Part shown: in pieces, positions 4,808 to 40,466 of the stretch
How the letters are laid out: every line of letters begins with the position of its first letter
Position numbering within the stretch: the first letter of the stretch is position 1
Origin: a virus
Length of the DNA stretch: 44,575 nucleotides
Virus record (IMG/VR): IMGVR_UViG_3300037189_007871
Location: 1 to 44,575 of that record
Strand: one strand, 5' to 3'
Made by a program: the position numbers and the translations under genes
The notes under the pieces: generated by a model
Told to the model about the DNA's origin: nothing
The model's database searches: none
Seen by the model: the letters and a program-made list of their open reading frames with translations, nothing else

Positions 4808-5089
4808 TTAGCGATTATAAAAATATTGGATCGTGCCGCCTGCGTCACTACTCCACCAAGACGACCCGTCATTATTGAAGCCATTGCAAACCCCGGCTGA
4901 ACAAGCTGCCCATCCGCCTGTGTTGCGCGGCGCTTCTTGAACAACCACTGGATCACGCGAGATTGCCGCCTGCGCGTTGGCTTCCGCTGCGTTCCAATCC
5001 ATTGTCGGCTGATAGGGCGGGATAATATCTTCCGCTTGAACTGCCGAACTGCTTAACCCTATCATTAGAGCGATTGATAACTTTTTCAT
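4808..5089 (-). CDS. Small secreted protein, candidate lysogenic conversion factor
   Basis: This 93-aa protein has a clear Sec signal peptide: MKKLSIALMIGLSSSAVQA with an A-x-A cleavage site before EDIIPPYQP. The mature part is about 74 aa with two Cys six residues apart (ACSAGVCNG) that could form a disulphide, many Asn/Ser/Trp, and an aromatic end (QYFYNR). No family is recognised. It lies 3 nt downstream of an XRE regulator in an operon probably expressed in the lysogen. That position suggests an envelope function such as superinfection exclusion or host fitness (inference). Confidence 0.75.
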   Translation of the reverse strand: MKKLSIALMIGLSSSAVQAEDIIPPYQPTMDWNAAEANAQAAISRDPVVVQEAPRNTGGWAACSAGVCNGFNNDGSSWWSSDAGGTIQYFYNR

Positions 5090-5092
5090 GCG

Positions 5093-5314
5093 TTATCGTC
5101 CTTTCTTTGGTTCTCGATATAAATCCAAATAATCGCAGCCGAGCGCGTGTGCGACGGCTGCTTGATTGTCCCTGGTTGGCAGTCTTGCGCCGCTTTCCCA
5201 ATTGCTAATTTGACCTTGGCTAATGCCAACAGCCTCGGCTAGTTCAAGTTGTGCAATGCCCATACGCTCACGCCATGCGCGGATATAGAGACGGGGTGGG
5301 GGCGGGTGTTTCAC
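5093..5314 (-). CDS. Small XRE-family regulator
   Basis: This 73-aa protein is almost entirely one XRE/Cro-C1 helix-turn-helix: YIRAWRERMGIAQLELAEAV, GISQGQISNWESGARLPTRD and AAVAHALGCDYLDLY (residues 10-66). It overlaps the upstream capsid-mimic HTH gene by 4 nt and is followed after 3 nt by the secreted protein. It is probably a second regulator of the accessory operon or of immunity. Its target site is unknown. Confidence 0.85.
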   Translation of the reverse strand: MKHPPPPRLYIRAWRERMGIAQLELAEAVGISQGQISNWESGARLPTRDNQAAVAHALGCDYLDLYREPKKGR

Positions 5315-5775
5315 AGCATTTCCTTAATAAAGTCCTTTAGCTTTCTGTTCTGCGCCTCAAGCTCTGCAATTCTTTCTAGGTCAGGTTGCCTAGCCATGTT
5401 TTCTACAAGGATACGCGCCGGGCTGTCTTTATCCAATGCCTGCGCGTATTCCATAAGACCATTTCTTGTTTTCTGTTCTTTGTCTTTGAGTTGATATATA
5501 GGCGCATTAAAAGCTGCGTGTCTGTTTAGTCTTTGACCGCCTCTCAGCATAGCCTCTTGATTGCCGCTGTGGAGCCATCTTGCCTCGCCTCCTATGGCGT
5601 CGGTTATTTGAACACAAGCCTCTAGTGATGCGCCGCGCTCGCCGCGCATATATGCTCCGCATGTGACGCGATTTAACCCTGTTACCCTTGCAAGCTCCGC
5701 GGGAGATGTTATGCCCTCCTGGTTTGCAAGGTGATTTAATCTCTTTGCGAATTCTTCAAACGGATATTTCTTCAT
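5311..5775 (-). CDS. XRE HTH protein carrying a capsid-protein-like segment
   Basis: This 154-aa protein has four parts. Residues about 5-70 form an XRE helix-turn-helix (AELARVTGLNRVTCGAYMRG). Residues 71-106 are a linker. Residues 107-133 (LMEYAQALDKDSPARI, then LVENMARQPDL) match major capsid residues 14-40 (LLEYAKTMDQDSPTRI, then FVENMAAESDL) at 17 of 27 positions. Residues 134-154 look like a short coiled coil (RIAELEAQNRKLKDFIKEML). Codons for shared residues mostly differ at third positions, so the likeness is kept at protein level. AGAAGGA lies about 10 nt before the ATG. It could be an immunity regulator, a capsid-sensing switch or a capsid-assembly inhibitor; none is shown. Confidence 0.85.
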   Translation of the reverse strand: MKKYPFEEFAKRLNHLANQEGITSPAELARVTGLNRVTCGAYMRGERGASLEACVQITDAIGGEARWLHSGNQEAMLRGGQRLNRHAAFNAPIYQLKDKEQKTRNGLMEYAQALDKDSPARILVENMARQPDLERIAELEAQNRKLKDFIKEML

Positions 5776-8164: not shown

Positions 8165-8365
8165 CTATTTAGCAGGCGCTCTTTTTTCATCAATGCGGGC
8201 TAAGAGCTTTACCAGGTAGGCCTTACGTGCGCCCTGGGCGTCGATGTTGTGCTTTGTGCAATGTGTTTGGATTGTTTGCCTGGTGACGTTTGCCAGGCGC
8301 GCGGCTTCTGCTTGTGTAATGATCCCAGCGCTTAATAGGCGCAATACTGCTTGTCGTTTTGTCAT
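8165..8365 (-). CDS. HTH regulator heading the leftward accessory operon
   Basis: This 66-aa protein has a simple helix-turn-helix: RQAVLRLLSAGIITQAEAAR, then LANVTRQTIQTHCTKHNIDA (residues about 4-44), ending in a basic tail (ARIDEKRAPAK). The ATG at 8365 lies at the centre of a perfect TTTGTCA-TC-TGACAAA palindrome, so the protein probably represses itself. A longer frame from 8407 is open but has no SD. The gene is divergent from the late terminase gene and could also control that promoter. Confidence 0.75.
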   Translation of the reverse strand: MTKRQAVLRLLSAGIITQAEAARLANVTRQTIQTHCTKHNIDAQGARKAYLVKLLARIDEKRAPAK

Positions 8366-8420
8366 CTGACAAATGGTTAAAATTCGTCTGACAAAAGTAA
8401 AACGCACTCCGTTTTGTCAA
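8358..8420. promoter_or_regulatory. Operator cluster and promoter for the accessory operon
   Basis: A perfect 7-2-7 palindrome TTTGTCA-TC-TGACAAA spans 8358-8373. Further half sites are TGACAAA at 8389-8395 and TTTGTCA at 8413-8419. On the minus strand TTGACA at 8420-8415 is a consensus -35 box. The arrangement fits autoregulation by the HTH protein at 8165-8365. Confidence 0.6.
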
Positions 8421-17857: not shown

Positions 17858-18159
17858 TCTTTCCTGACGATGAAGAGAAGGCCGGACTAAAGCGTTTAGG
17901 TCTTTATGCAGACGCTCAATATCTCTCACAGGTCTTAATCCGCAATCTTCAATATGTCGTTCCATACGACGCAACGCCCGGTGCGTTGGAAAGAAACGAG
18001 GGACGCCGCAGTTTCGCGCTCGAACTACTCAACTTGATGGAGCTTCGAGAGCAACCGCATGACAGAAAACCTGACGCAGCCGAACTCGCCCGAACCCGCA
18101 CAGGGAACATTTCAACTGGACAACGCGGTATCAAACGGCGTCTCCCCGGCGACAAATAA
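17854..18159 (+). CDS. Conserved phage head-module protein, unknown
   Basis: This 101-aa protein (GTG start in a GTGA overlap with the portal) begins MIFPDDEEKAGLKRLGLYAD, then AQYLSQVLIRNLQYVVPYD and GRRSFALELLNLMELRE. Small proteins of this pattern occur between portal and scaffold in related podoviruses. Its last 33 residues are Arg/Lys rich and are encoded by the same DNA as the start of the scaffold gene, in another frame (18059-18159). Confidence 0.75.
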   Translation: MIFPDDEEKAGLKRLGLYADAQYLSQVLIRNLQYVVPYDATPGALERNEGRRSFALELLNLMELREQPHDRKPDAAELARTRTGNISTGQRGIKRRLPGDK

Positions 18160-18829
18160 CGCGCCTCTTGCGCCCGAGCGGCCTTCATGGGTTTCCGATG
18201 AGTATTACGATCCTCAGCGTGGCGTAAAACTCGATGCAATTGGCTCAAAATTTAAAGAGCTAGAAGCATTTAAAAAGCAGCAAGACGAATTAGCCGCATC
18301 TCGCCGGGCTGAAATGCCTGAGACGCCAGACGGCTACGGCGCATTGCCAGAAGGAACAAAACTACCAGAAGGATTTACGGTCGATACAGAAAATCCAATG
18401 TGGAAGTTTTTACAAAAAGTATCTCACGAAAAAGGTCTGACAAAAAAGGAATATGCGGATCTTGCACAAGGTTACATTAATCACGCGGCGGAAGCGCAGA
18501 AAAGTTTTGCTGCGAAAGTAGATGGTGAAACCAAGGAACTCTTCAAGCAACTTGGTGACAATGGATCTCAACGCATAGACGCGCTCGGCAACTGGTTTCG
18601 CCAATCCTTTGGCGACAAGGTTGGTTATCAACTGTCTCAGACATTGTTCACGCCTGACATCGTTAAGGCAATGGAAGCAATGCAAAAGTCTCTCACTTCT
18701 CAAGGAACGGTTTCGTTCAACGGAATGGGACGCGATGGCGCTGGCGGCGGCGACATCGAAGGCTGGGACAAGATGACGTTCGAGCAACGCTGGAACGCAC
18801 GATCACAGCAAGATCGCCGCGCAAACTAA
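18059..18829 (+). CDS. Capsid scaffolding protein
   Basis: This 256-aa protein has an unstructured Pro/Asn-rich N-terminus, the segment PSWVSDEYYDPQRGVKLDAI, a coiled coil (KFKELEAFKKQQDELAASRR), EKGLTKKEYADLAQGYINHA, and a C-terminal helical end (DKMTFEQRWNARSQQ), a layout typical of podovirus scaffolds. It sits directly before the capsid gene. Its start overlaps the previous gene by 101 nt, and the SD before ATG 18059 is weak, so coupling is likely. Confidence 0.82.
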   Translation: MTENLTQPNSPEPAQGTFQLDNAVSNGVSPATNNAPLAPERPSWVSDEYYDPQRGVKLDAIGSKFKELEAFKKQQDELAASRRAEMPETPDGYGALPEGTKLPEGFTVDTENPMWKFLQKVSHEKGLTKKEYADLAQGYINHAAEAQKSFAAKVDGETKELFKQLGDNGSQRIDALGNWFRQSFGDKVGYQLSQTLFTPDIVKAMEAMQKSLTSQGTVSFNGMGRDGAGGGDIEGWDKMTFEQRWNARSQQDRRAN

Positions 18830-18845
18830 GTAGAGGATTATAATT

Positions 18846-19832
18846 ATGGCAACTGTCTATTCGAGTGTATCGGCTCCGATTACACTCCTTGAATATGCAA
18901 AGACGATGGATCAAGATAGTCCAACTCGTATCTTTGTTGAGAACATGGCCGCCGAGAGTGATCTCATGGCGTCTATGCCTTTCCTTCCTGCGATGAATGG
19001 TAAGCGCGCCTATATGGACATTGCTACTGTTCCGCAAGTCGGCTTCCGTGGACTGAACACAGGCGGCGGCGAAGCGACTGGCAACTTTAACCTTCGTGAA
19101 GAAGATACATTCTTCGTTGACGAATATGTTAAGGTTGATCGCGCGATCATGGATCGTCTTGGCCCAGATCACGAAGCTCGTCAGATCAAGCTCAAGACAA
19201 CTGCGCTTGCTCAGATGTTTACGGCTTCGTTCATTAAGTCGGACAATGACGTTAATCCAACGTCTCCGAATGGTATTCAGTCACGCTGCAACAATCTCGC
19301 TACCAATGCGGGAACGGGCGGCAATCTGCTTCACAATTCGGTTACGGCTGGCGGCGGCGCTTTGTCGCTTGCTAATCTCGACATCTTGTATTGGCTCGTC
19401 AATAAGCCAACGCATTGGCTAATGCCTCGCGGTCTTATGCCTTATCTTGACGCTTCTGCGCGCGATCCACAGTTAACCAATAACACTGTGACCTACGACA
19501 TGGCAGATCCGTTGGGCCGTCGCGTTATGCGCTACAAAGGCTTACCGATCCTGTTCGGTTATGAGCCAGATGACAGTCCAGACATGCTTCCTTTCTCGGA
19601 AGTTGGCGCTGGCGGTGGCGCTGCTCAGACGGCTTCAATCTACTGCGTATCTTTACGCGATGGTGGATTGTATTCGATTGAGCAAACGCCTCTTACGGTT
19701 CGTCCAGAGGGTCAGTTAATCGGCGCTCCGTTTAACTCAACGCATATCAAATGGGACTGGGGTATTGCACGCGAACATCCTCGCGCTGTCGCTCGCCTTA
19801 CGTCTGTCACAGCCACGAAGATCGCGGCTTAA
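18846..19832 (+). CDS. Major capsid protein
   Basis: This 328-aa protein follows the scaffold. Its N-terminus APITLLEYAKTMDQDSPTRI leads to MASMPFLPAMNG, VPQVGFRGLNTGGGEATGNF (about 59-78) and DEYVKVDRAIMDRLG, a pattern of the HK97-fold capsid proteins of podoviruses. Later segments NKPTHWLMPRGLMPYLDASA and HIKWDWGIAREHPRAVARLT fit the C-terminal half of the family. AGAGGA lies upstream of the ATG. Residues 14-40 are mimicked by the HTH protein encoded at 5311-5775. Confidence 0.9.
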   Translation: MATVYSSVSAPITLLEYAKTMDQDSPTRIFVENMAAESDLMASMPFLPAMNGKRAYMDIATVPQVGFRGLNTGGGEATGNFNLREEDTFFVDEYVKVDRAIMDRLGPDHEARQIKLKTTALAQMFTASFIKSDNDVNPTSPNGIQSRCNNLATNAGTGGNLLHNSVTAGGGALSLANLDILYWLVNKPTHWLMPRGLMPYLDASARDPQLTNNTVTYDMADPLGRRVMRYKGLPILFGYEPDDSPDMLPFSEVGAGGGAAQTASIYCVSLRDGGLYSIEQTPLTVRPEGQLIGAPFNSTHIKWDWGIAREHPRAVARLTSVTATKIAA

Positions 19833-19856: not shown

Positions 19857-20375
19857 ATGCCTTTAGGCCCATTTATTGGAAACAACGGCGCACCTGTTCC
19901 GTTTAATCCGCCAACAAAGGTTGGCACATTTGACGCTGCAAACTGCTTTACTGGTGGTTTAACGCCTCAGACGTTCACGGCTTCCGGCTATTTTCAAGAG
20001 GGCGGCGCTCCCGCAACGCTTGATGTTGGCCCAGGTCTTTTCGATGGTTACTGGATCATCGACTTTACTGCGCGCAAGCAGACGGGAACTGAGGAATATA
20101 CTCTTTATCTTCTCGGTTCTAACGATCGTGCATTTGGTGCTGGCAACATTGAGATGTTGTCGATCCAAGATTTTGGCGCAGCAAGATCGGCTGTTCAGCC
20201 TTCCGGCGTTACCTGTGGCGCAAGCCCTGCTGTTAATAGCGGGGAAACAAACTACGTTGCCACTATAAACTTTAAATCTGGCATCGTGTATCGTTATATT
20301 CGCGCTTGGATTGACGTTGCTGGCACGACGCCATCTGCAACTATCAATAGCTGGCTAACCTACGACGCTGGTTAA
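19857..20375 (+). CDS. Putative head decoration or auxiliary capsid protein
   Basis: This 172-aa Gly/Thr-rich, probably all-beta protein lies directly after the capsid gene with an AAGGAG site. Segments include LFDGYWIIDFTARKQTGTEE, YTLYLLGSNDRAFG and YRYIRAWIDVAGTTPSATIN. Proteins of this kind in related phages follow the major capsid gene and are thought to decorate the head. Position is the main evidence. Confidence 0.7.
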   Translation: MPLGPFIGNNGAPVPFNPPTKVGTFDAANCFTGGLTPQTFTASGYFQEGGAPATLDVGPGLFDGYWIIDFTARKQTGTEEYTLYLLGSNDRAFGAGNIEMLSIQDFGAARSAVQPSGVTCGASPAVNSGETNYVATINFKSGIVYRYIRAWIDVAGTTPSATINSWLTYDAG

Positions 20376-31100: not shown

Positions 31101-33142
31101 AATCTCTGCAATCAAGAAACAATGATGTGTGGAGTAAGATTGAAAAAGAATTGGAAGGTTGGCAGGGCGACACGACAAACGAGTTTCGGAGAGCCTTAAA
31201 AGAACGTGCTGACATTGAACAAAAGCGCGTCATTGATGAGGTAATGGGAAGAAGCGAAGCTAGATCAGGACGGCTTAGGACATCAGACGATGCAGCGCGC
31301 CGGGCTATTGATAGCATTATCGCCAGCCATCGGGATCTCTCTGATACGGAATTGGCTGATAAAGCATTAGAGATTGCGCACAATGTTCGCGGCGCTCCTG
31401 CTGGACGACTGAGCTATGACGGCGATGCTGTCCCTCATGGAAAATCCGTTGGCATGACAGACAATGGTGAGCGCGGATCTTTTAAAGATAGAACTGTTAA
31501 TATTCCCATTGAAAAAAAGATGCAGTTTCTCACTACAGATATGCGTGAAGTCATGGCGTCATACGCCAGGACGGCACAGACAGACGTATTGCTGGTTGAG
31601 AAATTTGGCAGCTTAGACTTTGAGAATGTTTTTAAGAATGTGCGGGCTGAGTATAGCCGCGAGATGAAATCTAATGAGGCGCGGCTAAAGCGCGGCGATA
31701 TTAGTCGGCAGACATACGAGCGCCAGCAAGAGAGTATTCGCAAGCAAATGGAAAAGGACGAGACAAATCTTAAAGGTGTTCTCGAGCGTGTGCGTGGTAT
31801 TTACGGCTATAACCCAGATCAACTAACATCTGGCGTTGCTGCATTTGCCCGCGATCTAAACAATATTAATACGCTCACGTCTCTTGGCCGCGCGATGCTC
31901 AATTCATTGAATGACGCTGGCGGTATGGCGGCCATGCGTTATGGCGTGACTAAAGTTTTGGGCCAGCAATGGATGCCCTATATCAATTCATTTATGAACG
32001 CCAACCCTAGAGCGTTTAACGCGGAGGTTAGACGACAGGCGCGCGAGATGTCGATTGGCATGGAGACGGCGCTTACTTTGATGACGCATAATATGGATGC
32101 GATCAGCAATGTGCGCGTAGGCAACAGGTTTTCAAAGACGCTTGCCTATGGCGCTAGTCGTTTCCAGGTGGCGAACGGCCTAGTTCTTTGGACTGACATG
32201 GTGAAGTCGGCGGCTATGCTTCCTGCGTCACGCAATTTTGCGGACGCTGCTGAGCGTTTCCGTCTAGGCAAGCAAACCCAGCGTGACATTGAGAATATGG
32301 CTGAGGCCAATATCCCAGACTACGTTGCAATAAAGATTGCTAATGAATGGAACGCTCATTCTACAGAGATGAATGGCGCAAAGTTTGCCAACATTGATAA
32401 GTGGAATGACCAGGAAGCGGTTAAGTATTTCAAAGCCGCCATGCGTAAAGAGGTTGATACGCTTGTTATCACGTCTGGCGTTGGCTCTTCTCCATTATGG
32501 ACGGCTTCTACGCTGGGCAGATCCATAGGCCAATTTAAGGCTTATATGTTTGCAGCGCATGAGAAGATGTATCTCGCCAACATGCAGAGACTAGATCACC
32601 ATGTTGGAACTGGCATGGCGTTTAGCTTAGGCTTGGGCGCTATGTCGTATGCCCTTTACCAATGGTCAAAGGGCGAAGAGATTTCAGACAATCCCGCCCA
32701 GGTGTTTAAAGAAGCGTTTGATCGCGGTGGTATGGCGGCGAAGTATAACGAGGTGAATAAGATTTTATCAAAAGCCACTGGCGGCAATATGGATATTGGT
32801 AGGGCTATTGGCGCAACCGCTCCACTAACGCGCCGCCAAGATAACAGCGTATTGGCTGACGTGTTCGGCACAGGCGCAAACCTTATTGAGAAGGGTTTGA
32901 AGGTTGGTGGTCACATTGGCGCTGGTCTAGCTGCGCCAAAAGGCAAAACATTCACTGATTATTTCACAGGCAAGGACGTAAACGACATACGCACGTCAAT
33001 AGGCATAGGGCAAAATCAATTCTTTCCTGGCGGGTTGCTCTATGATGGTGCGGAAGTCGGGATCACGCATCTCTTTGGCATACCGCGAACGCCAAAACAG
33101 AAAGAAAAAGCAAAACGATTTGATCGCTGGATGGGCAATTAG
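28109..33142 (+). CDS. Giant internal virion (ejection) protein
   Basis: This 1677-aa protein is the largest product. An N-terminal part (to about 380) includes hydrophobic Gly/Ala segments (GRLALAGGATAAISEPFYQ), the centre (about 600-720) is a strong coiled coil (Glu/Lys/Arg heptads), and the C-terminal third has LGRAMLNSLNDAGGMAAMRY, LGRSIGQFKAYMFAAHEKMY and a hydrophobic TGMAFSLGLGAMSYALYQW. This resembles the T7-like core or ejection proteins. No enzyme motif is certain. ATG 28109 is preferred over the GTG at 28094. Confidence 0.75.
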   Translation: MADETYQRILPTPPNPVDLPQYQDRPDLAGAAMTPQFPTPNTSAPKFTEPSFGDKANALLHENDFYVLGSLASDYFYPTVKDQTPDPDFHPIEAARGTWAENEVSKLVGLKNRAEFDDFIARGQEHIKNDEILAAGGWGTTALRLANGMVSPAVVMPAFMGPRLLGTAGRLALAGGATAAISEPFYQAEDPTRTMGDAAFSIGAGTIGAVALGKLFRWTPPEEVAKVTQSIKEARGEVAHVERTQGNQTIVSVADDAAAVHLDDNPIGPDAVAVTERLKATDGSEYKIEGDQVTELKGDVSVDPNARITDNAELDTGGVQPGRPIEATGTGGSVGAASADDRSLAPRDVTPTPQLRLVRDKIGNIVDGFVKTRAGGYVADLVTPIGRMMNTIGTSPVGDVLENSMSKSARAAMLNLAETSIRIVDEKLGKVKASGGGAVETYKKIENDALQYNAVRSVELAYAEHAYGSAANEPKARLIGSDYWPGRPQDKMTYEQFNERVFIALNNGDKDLLGQANFGAADAAVEKAAAEVRVHFDKWAERATKAQFEDGTTMLSDAFKAPRGALSYAPHMYDNAKIDGNWPAFVGMWKESLRVDQEAKAAAKERIIDYKDQHEELTNRIAEANKRMAAIDRRIKEIDIRQSERDMVGKAQQSQEEKAIDRVESAKTLAQEVRDDIEFLRSSLDENSAEVKMLERELAQLEKEARPISAKELAQIEKEELERFIVDPEHKKALEIAVGRRKREEPSSILEWIAREGGVSDPGGELMSALGKGAKPIKYYTVIPGEKQIVDGKEVKTKSKRLTHKLIVPLKNELRENNTFNAWAQRFREMAPERFGDEVPDDNEVIDIISEAINGREPDWFRDIQPGAETNRVADAYMQAFENLDVKPKNLKEAMKALSSGVDERVLDRLNESLGAGSKAGRAGEELVDKNAARAEAKRYISKLIQDRRVADARTVGANAASKDIGVLKTENRGRIGQLEDRRANLEEVRMMLETVEKSLQSRNNDVWSKIEKELEGWQGDTTNEFRRALKERADIEQKRVIDEVMGRSEARSGRLRTSDDAARRAIDSIIASHRDLSDTELADKALEIAHNVRGAPAGRLSYDGDAVPHGKSVGMTDNGERGSFKDRTVNIPIEKKMQFLTTDMREVMASYARTAQTDVLLVEKFGSLDFENVFKNVRAEYSREMKSNEARLKRGDISRQTYERQQESIRKQMEKDETNLKGVLERVRGIYGYNPDQLTSGVAAFARDLNNINTLTSLGRAMLNSLNDAGGMAAMRYGVTKVLGQQWMPYINSFMNANPRAFNAEVRRQAREMSIGMETALTLMTHNMDAISNVRVGNRFSKTLAYGASRFQVANGLVLWTDMVKSAAMLPASRNFADAAERFRLGKQTQRDIENMAEANIPDYVAIKIANEWNAHSTEMNGAKFANIDKWNDQEAVKYFKAAMRKEVDTLVITSGVGSSPLWTASTLGRSIGQFKAYMFAAHEKMYLANMQRLDHHVGTGMAFSLGLGAMSYALYQWSKGEEISDNPAQVFKEAFDRGGMAAKYNEVNKILSKATGGNMDIGRAIGATAPLTRRQDNSVLADVFGTGANLIEKGLKVGGHIGAGLAAPKGKTFTDYFTGKDVNDIRTSIGIGQNQFFPGGLLYDGAEVGITHLFGIPRTPKQKEKAKRFDRWMGN

Positions 33143-33207
33143 CGGTGCGTTTAAATAGAAGGGATTAGACGCCAGAAATATCGCACCTTATTCATTGGTG
33201 AGATAAT

Positions 33208-36200
33208 ATGGCCGTTATTCCTCCCGTCCCTCCCGTAGCAGACGCCGACCGAATTTTCACAATTGAGCCGACCGGGCCTGTTCTACAAATAGAAGTTCCG
33301 TTCCCAATCTATGGTGACGCTAGGGATATTTATATTAAGGTGCCTAGTGGTGAAATTAGCGCCGAGAAGTGGACGTTAATTTCAAAATCCGGTTCTCCGA
33401 TTTCAACATTGCCGCAACCAATTACTGACGGCGTTATACAATTTAATGAGCCAATTGGCGGCGTTTCAAAAATATCAGTTATTGGTCGCATACGCCCTCG
33501 CCAATTGATTATGCCGACCGCTTCTGGAATTGCTCGGAGAGAATTCAACCAAGAAAATGGTTTTATTGTTTCCGCTTTGCGGGAATTTTATTCTCGTTTT
33601 GATAATATTCCATCTGGCCCTCCTGGCCCTCCTGGCAGAGAGGGCGCTGTTGGCCCGCAAGGAAACCAAGGGCCGGAAGGTTTGCAGGGCAGGCCCGGTA
33701 TTCAAGGCCCGATGGGTATTGCTGGCGAGCGTGGCGCACAGGGTGTTATGGGGCCGCAAGGCCCGATGGGTAATGAAGGCCCAGAAGGGCCGTCTCTCCC
33801 TGGCCCACAGGGTGAAGCTGGCCCGAAGGGTGAGCAAGGGCCGCGTGGTGTTCAAGGCACAGCGGGCGACACTGGCCCCGAAGGCCCAGACGGGCCTCCT
33901 GGCCCACAGGGCGAGCAAGGAGCAAGAGGGCCGGAGGGCGATCAAGGCCCACAGGGTATTCCAGGCCCAGAGGGTGATCCTGGCATACAGGGGCCAATGG
34001 GGCCGCAAGGAAAGCAGGGCGCTCCTGGTCAGATTAGCGATCTTGTTGGCTCGTTTAAAAATCATACGCCAGATGAATTGCCTGTCGATGGTTTAATTCC
34101 ACAAGACTGGGAAGGGCCGGGAGATCCCCCTGCGCCATATCAGATGAAGCTCGATGAGAGCCTAGTCTATATCGGGACGGTTGCTGATGGCCGGGTTGGT
34201 GGCCTTTTATCTCAGCATGTTTTTATCTTTAAGGGCGCGCAAGGCTGGATTGACGCTGGGCAGATACAAGGCCCAGAGGGGCCGATTGGGCCACAAGGCG
34301 TTGCTGGCCCGCGTGGGCCTCAAGGCGAGCCTGGTCAGAAAGGCGATGACGGGTCTGTAGGCCCAGAGGGGCCACAGGGGCCGCAAGGTATTAGAGGCCC
34401 GGCTGGCCCAGCGGGTCGCACAGGAGACGAAGGGCCGGAAGGCCCGCGTGGTTTTGACGGCGCGCAAGGGCCGCAAGGCCCACAAGGCCCAGCGGGGCCA
34501 AAAGGCGACCAGGGGCCACAAGGCGTAGATGGTCAGCAAGGGCCAAAGGGTGACGATGGCCGAGATGGGCCACAAGGCCTTCAAGGAATTCAAGGAAATA
34601 TTGGCCCACAGGGGCCGCGTGGAAATGAGGGGCCGCGTGGTGTTCAAGGAAACCAGGGTGATCCTGGTATTCCATGCAAAGTAGCAGGAGAATTTTTCAA
34701 CAGAACTCCTGCTGAGCTTCCTGTTTCTGGGCTTATCCCTAAAGATTGGGATGGCCCTAATGAACCGCCAAGAAATATACAGTTAGCCGTTAATGACGGG
34801 CTGATTTACAACGGGACAAGAGTGCCTGGTAAGACTGGGCATCTGTATGTGTGGATTGGGAATTTTGGCGAAGAGACAGACGGCTGGGTAGATGCTGGCA
34901 AGATCGTAGGGCCGGAAGGCCCGCGTGGAGCGACAGGCAGCCAAGGCGAGCAAGGCCCACAAGGTGATAATGGGCCAGAAGGCCCACAAGGCCCAGCGGG
35001 GCAGGACGGGCCAGAAGGCCCGCGTGGCCCAGAGGGGCCGCAGGGCAATGATGGCGAACAAGGTATCCAAGGCCCGCAAGGCGAACAAGGCATACAGGGC
35101 ATACAAGGCGAACAAGGCCCGCGCGGCGAGCAAGGAGATCAAGGCCCAGAAGGCCCACAAGGTATCCAAGGTCAAGACGGGCCAGAAGGCCCACCTGGCC
35201 CCGAAGGCCCGGCGGGCAAGTTTTCTAATTTGCGCGGCGAATTTGTAAATAGGCTGCCAAGCGAATTACCAGCAGACGGCTTTATTCCAAAAGACTTTGA
35301 TGGCCCTGGCGAGCCTCCTATCGATGTTCAGTTGGAACCTAAAGACGCGCTTATTTATAACGGGACAGCCGCTACGCAATACATAGGTCATTTATTTATA
35401 TTCACTGGCGAACCAGGGATTGAGATTGACGGCTGGATTAACGGCGGTGTTATCGTTGGCCCACAAGGGCCGCGTGGCCCAGAGGGGCCAGAAGGCCCAC
35501 AAGGCCCAGTCGGCGTAAAGGGCGACCAGGGCGAGCAAGGCCCAGAAGGAATACAGGGTCAGGAAGGGCCGGATGGGCCGAGAGGGCCAGACGGCCCACA
35601 AGGTCGTCAAGGCGAGAAAGGCGACGAAGGCCCGCAAGGGCCGCAAGGCCCGGCAGGAAACGATGGGCCGCAAGGCCCACGTGGGCCACAGGGTGACGAA
35701 GGCCCACAAGGCCCGCAAGGCCCACAAGGGCCGGTCGATCCAAACGCCTTGGATAAAAGAAACAATCTTTCAGATTTGCAAAATGCTGGAATTGCAATTC
35801 AGTATTTAGGTGCGCTGGATAAAAATAGGAACTTGCAAGACCTAACAAATGCAGCGACGGCAAGAGCCAATCTTAGTCTGGGTGACGCTGCAATACGAAA
35901 TGTCGGAACAACGGTTGGAACTGTTGCGGCTGGCAACGATCCTCGTTTTGATAGTAGTGGTTATGACGGCAAGGTTGAAACAAAAAGTGTAAACGGTGGC
36001 TATACTCTCATAGCTTCTGACACTAATAAACTTCTGCGCGTTGAGAGCGCGGGAACAATTACCGTTCCTTCAAGCCTCGGTCTTGGTTTTCATTGCTGGA
36101 TTTACAACGCCGCAAGCGGAGGTGGGAACATTACGGTTGCCACAAACACCGTTTTTGAGATTGGCTCATCTGGCAATGCTTATGTCTCCAGCTTTGCCTT

Positions 36201-39061: not shown

Positions 39062-40261
39062 TCACTTCAAAGCAAGTCGCAATTGAGCAACGCGGCGCGA
39101 CTGTTCGAGCTTTTTACCGCGCATGTATCGCATTGTTGTTTTGCTATCAGAGTGACCAAGCGTTTCACGAATATCATCGAGTGTGCTGCCTGCTGTCGCT
39201 GCCTCTGTCGCTGCGCCTGCGCGGGCGTCCATCGACCATACGTCGCGCGGCAATCCAGCAAGATCCGCAATCTGTCTCCAAGCTGGCGAGTAACACCTAT
39301 CAGCGTATGGCCTGTCAGCTTTCTCATCGATGATAAGCGGGCCAATACGTTCCGCTTCATTGATGGAAGTAATGATCTCCATAACCATTGGACACAGCGT
39401 CAGATCATGCGCGACTTCCTGGCCTGTCTTGGTCGTTCGTTTATAGAACTGCCACTCATCAGAGATGTCGGCCCAGGTTATCCCATTAACCCATTGCTGA
39501 TTGTTCAAAGTATAATTTGATCTAGCGCCTGACGCCGGGATAGGGAGCCATTCGCCTATCACGTCTTTCTGACGCATGGCGCACTCGAACTGGATAGCTG
39601 TTGCAAGGGCCAGGGAGAGCCGTCCATTAGCCAAAGCTGTTTTGATAAAGGTCTGCGCCTGGTCGCGCGTCATTGCGCTCTGCCGTGGCCTTGGCCTCTC
39701 GAACTGTGTGTTGTGCAAGATGGCATGGACGCGGGCGCATCCGTCAACCTCGGCTGCTACGCCAAAGCTAAAGACCCTGCGTAGCATTTCAACCACACGA
39801 TAGGCGGTATGAATATGCTCTTCACCTGTTGGCCCATCTGGAAAGCGGGCCTCGTTATACCAGCGGCGGATGACGGCGAGATTGATGGCGTCGATTTTGA
39901 CTGTGCCAATACGCTCTTCAACCCAGTCGAGAGAATGTGAATAGGTTCTGCGCGTGTTAGGTTTAACCCTGCAATTGAAAGGGCTTTCTGGGCGCAGGCG
40001 ATATTCCCTAAATAATTTTGAGATTGTTATTTCAGACAGGTGTTCGTAGTCGCCTTCCTGGCGCGCGATCCATTCAAGCATTTCCGCCTGGTAAATAGCG
40101 CAAATAGAGGCAAGCTCTTCCTCAGTCTGCGCTATTACTCTGATTGATGACGGCGCGTAGTTGAGGGCGCGGGCGCGCTTGTTGGCTTCCCAGTATAGGC
40201 GCACTTCGCCGTTCGCGTTTGTCTTTCTGACTAGCCCCGGTATTTTTGAAACCTGTTTCAT
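39062..40261 (-). CDS. int: Tyrosine-family integrase
   Basis: This 399-aa tyrosine recombinase inserts the phage at tRNA-Gly. Its C-terminal catalytic domain has FECAMRQKDVIGEW (first Arg), VWSMDARAGAATEAA (second Arg), LGHSDSKTTMRYMRG (His and the nucleophile Tyr), in a subfamily where the usual HxxR His is not His (here MDAR). The middle has the SAM-like core-binding region (PNTRRTYSHSLDWVEERIG). ATG 40261 is chosen because GGAGAAGG lies just upstream. It is the last gene of the leftward operon and its stop lies 79 nt from the attP core. Confidence 0.93.
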   Translation of the reverse strand: MKQVSKIPGLVRKTNANGEVRLYWEANKRARALNYAPSSIRVIAQTEEELASICAIYQAEMLEWIARQEGDYEHLSEITISKLFREYRLRPESPFNCRVKPNTRRTYSHSLDWVEERIGTVKIDAINLAVIRRWYNEARFPDGPTGEEHIHTAYRVVEMLRRVFSFGVAAEVDGCARVHAILHNTQFERPRPRQSAMTRDQAQTFIKTALANGRLSLALATAIQFECAMRQKDVIGEWLPIPASGARSNYTLNNQQWVNGITWADISDEWQFYKRTTKTGQEVAHDLTLCPMVMEIITSINEAERIGPLIIDEKADRPYADRCYSPAWRQIADLAGLPRDVWSMDARAGAATEAATAGSTLDDIRETLGHSDSKTTMRYMRGKKLEQSRRVAQLRLALK

Positions 40262-40466
40262 TGTCCTTCTCCGCTGGCGTGGAGGATCTGCGTTCGCGTG
40301 AATAGAGAAAATCTTGAACTGCAACCCAGTGTCTTCGATCTTGGAACAATGGTGAGCGCCGGGGAAGACCCGAACGCTCTAAAACTATTGCTGTCGCCGT
40401 CCATTCAACGACTGTCATTCCCAGGCGCTTGGCGATTTCCCTATCCGAAAGATAGATGTCACCCAC
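40122..40466 (-). CDS. Excisionase-like HTH protein
   Basis: This 114-aa protein starts at GTG 40466, with AAGGAG 7 nt upstream. It has a short winged HTH: YLSDREIAKRLGMTVVEWTA, then VLERSGLPRRSPLFQDRRHW (residues about 5-47), as in phage excisionases or directionality factors. After about residue 60 the frame overlaps the integrase start by 140 nt and looks nonconserved (Arg/Ser rich). It probably bends attP to promote excision. Confidence 0.72.
   Translation of the reverse strand: MGDIYLSDREIAKRLGMTVVEWTATAIVLERSGLPRRSPLFQDRRHWVAVQDFLYSRERRSSTPAEKDNETGFKNTGASQKDKRERRSAPILGSQQARPRPQLRAVINQSNSAD

Follow-up and report, generated by a model that had tools for sequence, protein, structure and literature searches.

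The window, by which we mean the whole stretch of 44.6 kb of DNA that was analysed, is the record of a temperate phage and carries genes for an integrase (39062-40324), a terminase, a portal, a scaffold candidate, a major capsid protein (MCP) and tail proteins. A leftward operon extends from about position 8365 to 4808, and the third gene from its end (5311-5775, minus strand), which has a good Shine-Dalgarno sequence (AGAAGG), encodes a 154-aa XRE/HTH regulator whose C-terminal part resembles the N-terminal arm (N-arm) of the MCP. The assignment as a phage regulator is based on the translation, on an HTH_3-type DNA-binding domain at residues 21-68 (PF01381, E=1.9e-5, 25 bits against a cut-off of 23) and on a match to phrog_2328, a family of transcriptional repressors (E=3.3e-7), while the curated cut-off of the RstR family (NF041951) is not reached (18.7 bits against 80). 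The nearest relatives of the HTH part are S24-type and RstR-like repressors, whose C-terminal parts differ from that of the 154-aa protein, and the S24 domain is absent from it. The end of the protein, encoded like the rest on the minus strand, is composed of a segment (the tail; 5377-5457, codons 107-133) with likeness to residues 14-40 of the MCP, and an amphipathic, leucine-zipper-like C-terminal helix (5314-5376, codons 134-154; ERIAELEAQNRKLKDFIKEML), which probably dimerises the regulator. A helix at residues 133-153 is present in the structural model as well, which is of low confidence, the single-sequence prediction for the 154-aa protein being poor (pLDDT 52).

The leftward operon

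The regulator gene had been described as standing beside another regulator and a secreted protein, and its neighbours are as described. The second XRE regulator (5093-5314, minus strand; 73 aa; HTH_3, E=1.5e-13) is matched at the corresponding position of the closest near-complete related phage by a 53% relative, and its start overlaps the stop of the 154-aa regulator in the sequence GTGA, so that joint translation of the two proteins is probable. The operon ends with a gene (4808-5089, minus strand) for a small secreted protein with a signal-peptide-like N-terminus.

At the head of the operon, the probable first gene (8165-8365, minus strand) encodes a small HTH-like protein from an ATG start inside a listed 80-aa ORF, and small ORFs comparable to it are present in three other records (L188, L192 and L193). 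Three copies of an operator-like repeat, TTTTGTCA, in direct and inverted orientation, lie at 8357-8419 and flank a TTGACA hexamer in front of this gene; they are likely to be operators, and may belong to the HTH protein of the first gene rather than to the 154-aa regulator. Further single copies of TTTTGTCA occur at 1623, 18438 and 38621. A ribosome-binding leader on the minus strand, AACAGAAGGA, recurs before several genes of the operon (5785, 6640, 7635 and 8035), and has five matches in the window, where 0.11 would be expected.

The capsid protein arm and the scaffold candidate

The MCP (18846-19832, plus strand) is of the epsilon15 gp7/BPP-1 type (NF045672, E=5.3e-33; phrog_212) and is modelled with an HK97 fold; the only solved chain found for it by sequence is the BPP-1 MCP (3j4u), at E=0.13. 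Its N-arm segment (residues 14-40; 18885-18965, plus strand) is conserved throughout the MCP family, with Y17, R28, V31, N33, M34, S38 and D39 invariant and F30 and E32 nearly invariant in MCPs down to 59% identity, and the model places helices at residues 14-18 and 26-37 (pLDDT about 80). Directly upstream of the MCP gene lies that of a probable scaffolding protein (18059-18829, plus strand), which has weak matches to phrog_3742 and phrog_458 and a docking-like C-terminus, where a IEGWDKMTFEQR-like (DKMTFEQR-like) motif follows a Gly-rich linker (motif region 18620-18829). This C-terminal motif is conserved in nearly all relatives, at an overall identity of only 27-63%.

In SPP1 the scaffold binds the N-terminal helix of the MCP in the procapsid, and this helix unfolds on scaffold release (PMC6813328). 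In 80alpha it is the scaffold's C-terminal helix that contacts the helix of the N-arm (PMC5644958), and the same kind of scaffold/N-arm contact has been described for P22 and phi29 (PMC12749128). In BPP-1, the nearest solved relative, the N-terminal loop contacts a cement protein in the mature head (PMC3863775); a putative cement protein of the phage studied here is encoded at 19857-20375. Given the scaffold/N-arm contact in other phages and the conserved C-terminus of the scaffold candidate, it is plausible, by an analogy that carries the function of the N-arm over from phages with very distant MCPs, that the scaffold C-terminus and the MCP N-arm form a docking pair in this phage too.

Likeness between the regulator tail and the N-arm

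Residues 107-133 of the regulator (LMEYAQALDKDSPARILVENMARQPDL) and residues 14-40 of the MCP (LLEYAKTMDQDSPTRIFVENMAAESDL) are identical at 17 of 27 positions in an ungapped alignment, a likeness first noticed in the sequence-only reading and confirmed here by re-alignment and BLASTP. For the pair alone BLASTP gives 42 bits (E=1e-9), with one gap the alignment lengthens to 21 identities in 40 positions (regulator 107-145, MCP 14-53), and in a search of the phage's own record the match has E=6.6e-7. Helices are predicted at corresponding places in the regulator tail and the MCP N-arm. A short API motif found in both proteins, which had been counted as part of the likeness, was dropped, given that it is not collinear, its distance to the segment that follows being 13 residues in one protein and 1 residue in the other.

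The nucleotide sequences of the two segments agree at 53 of 81 positions, which correspond to 17, 25 and 11 of 27 at codon positions 1, 2 and 3, respectively. As had been claimed, identical residues are mostly encoded by codons that differ at the third position: the codon differs in 11 of the 16 identical residues other than Met and is shared in the other five. Synonymous sites between the tail and the arm are saturated, which rules out a recent gene duplication as the origin of the tail and upholds the view that the likeness is held at the protein level and is no recent DNA copy. Since residues were kept and silent sites changed, the copy is either old or derived from a diverged phage; the retention of residues in the face of saturated synonymous sites suggests that the tail is under constraint.

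Because a likeness picked out visually in one particular pair of proteins may owe something to selection, three further checks were made. An N-arm HMM constructed from 33 MCP sequences, all outside the phage's own clade, matched the regulator with 30.9 bits (E=6.4e-9), while 20,000 shuffled regulator sequences scored 10.5 bits at best; in the window this HMM had no other match besides the regulator and the MCP. The tail is thus significantly matched by N-arms of MCPs other than its own, consistent with the earlier claim that it copies a capsid element. The 10 differing residues of the segment were also found to fit the profile of MCPs from other clades, much more closely than residues drawn at random (p=0.0004) and more closely than conservative changes of a generic kind (p=0.008), in a test that is conditioned on the 17 identities and in which the segment ends, chosen by the match, somewhat favour conservative differences. 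The changes at non-identical positions, previously described as mostly conservative, therefore follow substitutions seen in other MCPs. Finally, an all-against-all comparison within 18 related records, comprising 691 ORFs and 15,427 protein pairs, detected no other cross-function match like that between regulator and MCP, the remaining within-record matches looking like structural paralogues located close together or spurious antisense ORFs. A weak HMM match in G034 (E=0.097) was rejected as chance, and a pair in G028 was found to consist of antisense ORFs.

That two amphipathic helices resemble each other by chance or convergence might be suspected from the single instance, the shortness of the segment and the choice of this pair out of many possible ones, but it is very unlikely in view of the E-values of the clade-excluded HMM (6e-9) and of the pair (1e-9), of shuffled scores nowhere near the observed one, of differences that are conservative and MCP-like, and of the lack of a comparable cross-function pair among those of the 18 records. 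These sequence comparisons give good support to the view that the tail is homologous to the N-arms of the MCP family.

Not all of the near-invariant positions of the N-arm are found in the tail, which keeps seven of the nine and has L in place of F30 and P in place of S38. The loss of these two residues is consistent with a tail that came from an MCP gene fragment and was kept only as a helical linker or dimerisation element, with no capsid-assembly partner, and so is the fact that the tail runs on into the zipper-like helix, in a protein of a type that needs dimerisation and that is devoid of the S24 domain of its nearest relatives. However, a generic helix has no need of the seven positions that were kept, and the differences in the tail are described better by MCP-specific substitutions than by conservative change of a generic kind; we regard this explanation as possible but doubtful.

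Distribution of the tailed regulator

IMG/VR, GenBank phages, plasmids, GTDB genomes and related phages yielded no second XRE protein that carries this tail. These searches included an exact peptide scan, a motif pattern, an HTH-based alignment and scans of GenBank phages and plasmids, as well as alignment searches with the tail and the N-arm in IMG/VR and GTDB. In the 385 and 397 genomes that represent the class and the order of a Bradyrhizobium genome, only weak matches at chance level were obtained. Across the searched collections the 154-aa regulator is thus a singleton, by scans of limited sensitivity of which the pattern-based ones miss diverged relatives. The proposal that the tail is a common one among XRE proteins was rejected, as no scan of these collections gave a second example, within the same limited sensitivity. 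What the sequence-only reading had named as the main observation that would speak against it, namely that the tail is common in XRE proteins with no matching capsid in the same genome, was not borne out, no such protein being found in the searched databases.

Related MCPs are present in two Bradyrhizobium genomes, and a search based on the neighbouring genes identified two relatives with a syntenic operon that does not include a gene for the tailed regulator. The closest near-complete relative (G002, MCP 93% identical) is arranged in the same way and encodes a related 73-aa XRE protein and a small secreted protein, but carries a peptidase-like gene where the window has that of the 154-aa XRE protein. 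The other one (L192) has the neighbouring 6040-6315 gene at 78% identity and a gene for a small secreted protein, and both XRE genes are missing from it. Since two relatives have the same operon without the gene, the latter can be seen as an accessory gene inserted into a layout that is otherwise conserved. In G002, positions 32683-35369 encode a 543-aa protein and the peptidase-like protein where the window has a DUF932 protein and the 154-aa XRE regulator, and this is a swap site for accessory genes. A small secreted protein forms the end of the operon in all three phages (4808-5089 in the window, 35635-35901 in G002 and 6701-6961 in L192), with dissimilar sequences.

Proposed function of the regulator

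Since the N-arm is the scaffold-docking helix in well-studied phages, the scaffold is a likelier partner of the tail than free capsid protein. By analogy with those phages we propose tentatively, and with less than even confidence, that the 154-aa protein is an XRE regulator with a grafted MCP N-arm, and that its tail binds the partner of this arm, most likely the C-terminal motif of the scaffold. A phage HTH regulator would have acquired, in its C-terminal part, a segment related to the MCP N-arm, which lies in front of the probable dimerisation helix. If the N-arm is the scaffold docking element in procapsid assembly, the tail would be expected to bind the same partner, for which the best candidate is the motif conserved at the C-terminus of the putative scaffold (18059-18829). 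Against this reading count the single instance of such a regulator, the L and P in place of F30 and S38, the poor model of the regulator, the great distance of the MCPs from which the N-arm function is taken, and the contact of the BPP-1 loop with the cement protein. The sequence-only reading had supposed that the regulator poisons capsid assembly of a superinfecting phage or senses free capsid protein; of that reading, a real likeness, held at the protein level and to a capsid element, has stood, and the partner has shifted from free capsid protein to the scaffold.

Such binding could have two outcomes. In one, the regulator would act as a sensor of the late stage, as free scaffold produced at that time could detach it from its operator. 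In the other, the regulator in a lysogen could tie up the scaffold of a superinfecting relative. It is rather doubtful, taken as a whole, that the regulator reads the state of head assembly by means of a tail that serves as an N-arm decoy for free scaffold, thereby coupling the supply of late proteins to the genetic switch or else blocking superinfecting relatives.

The protein might instead act in interference only, its tail entering or capping scaffold or MCP intermediates of superinfecting relatives as a form of lysogen immunity and its DNA binding serving just its own expression. Mimicry has precedents in capsid interference, where CpmB copies a scaffold motif and Ccm is a captured MCP, and the leftward operon that contains the gene is made up of variable accessory genes; the known examples, however, are satellites acting on their helpers, and a phage-encoded poison of the phage's own scaffold must be switched off on induction, and we consider this alternative unlikely.

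Comparison with known systems

If the grafted arm of the regulator does bind scaffold or capsid protein, the control of phage transcription would be tied directly to head assembly, a link for which no described example was found in our literature search; nor did this search find a chimera of a regulator and a capsid protein. Defence proteins of the CapRel(SJ46) type are toxin-antitoxin fusions that bind the MCP and carry no MCP segment, and they are similar to the regulator proposed here in that the activity of a regulator-like protein would depend on capsid-assembly proteins. The RstR and phrog_2328 repressors are, like the 154-aa protein, short phage regulators with an N-terminal XRE HTH domain, but they have no counterpart of the MCP-like tail, and the RstR score is 18.7 against 80 bits.

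Further parallels to the tail are found among proteins of satellites. Ccm of SaPIbov5 (Nat Commun 2021, PMC8569155) likewise derives from a capsid protein that was captured and serves away from a phage's own head operon, but it is a full-length HK97-fold protein that is built into the shell, whereas here an arm of 27-40 residues is carried by a regulator. CpmB of SaPI1 (eLife 2017, PMC5644958) is small and dimeric, imitates a docking motif found in a protein of capsid assembly, and competes at the scaffold/N-arm interface; in contrast to the regulator, it has no reported HTH domain, is encoded by a satellite and not by a phage, and copies the scaffold side and not the MCP side. If our tentative reading is true, the regulator would be the mirror image of CpmB, mimicking the shell side of the interface instead of the scaffold side.
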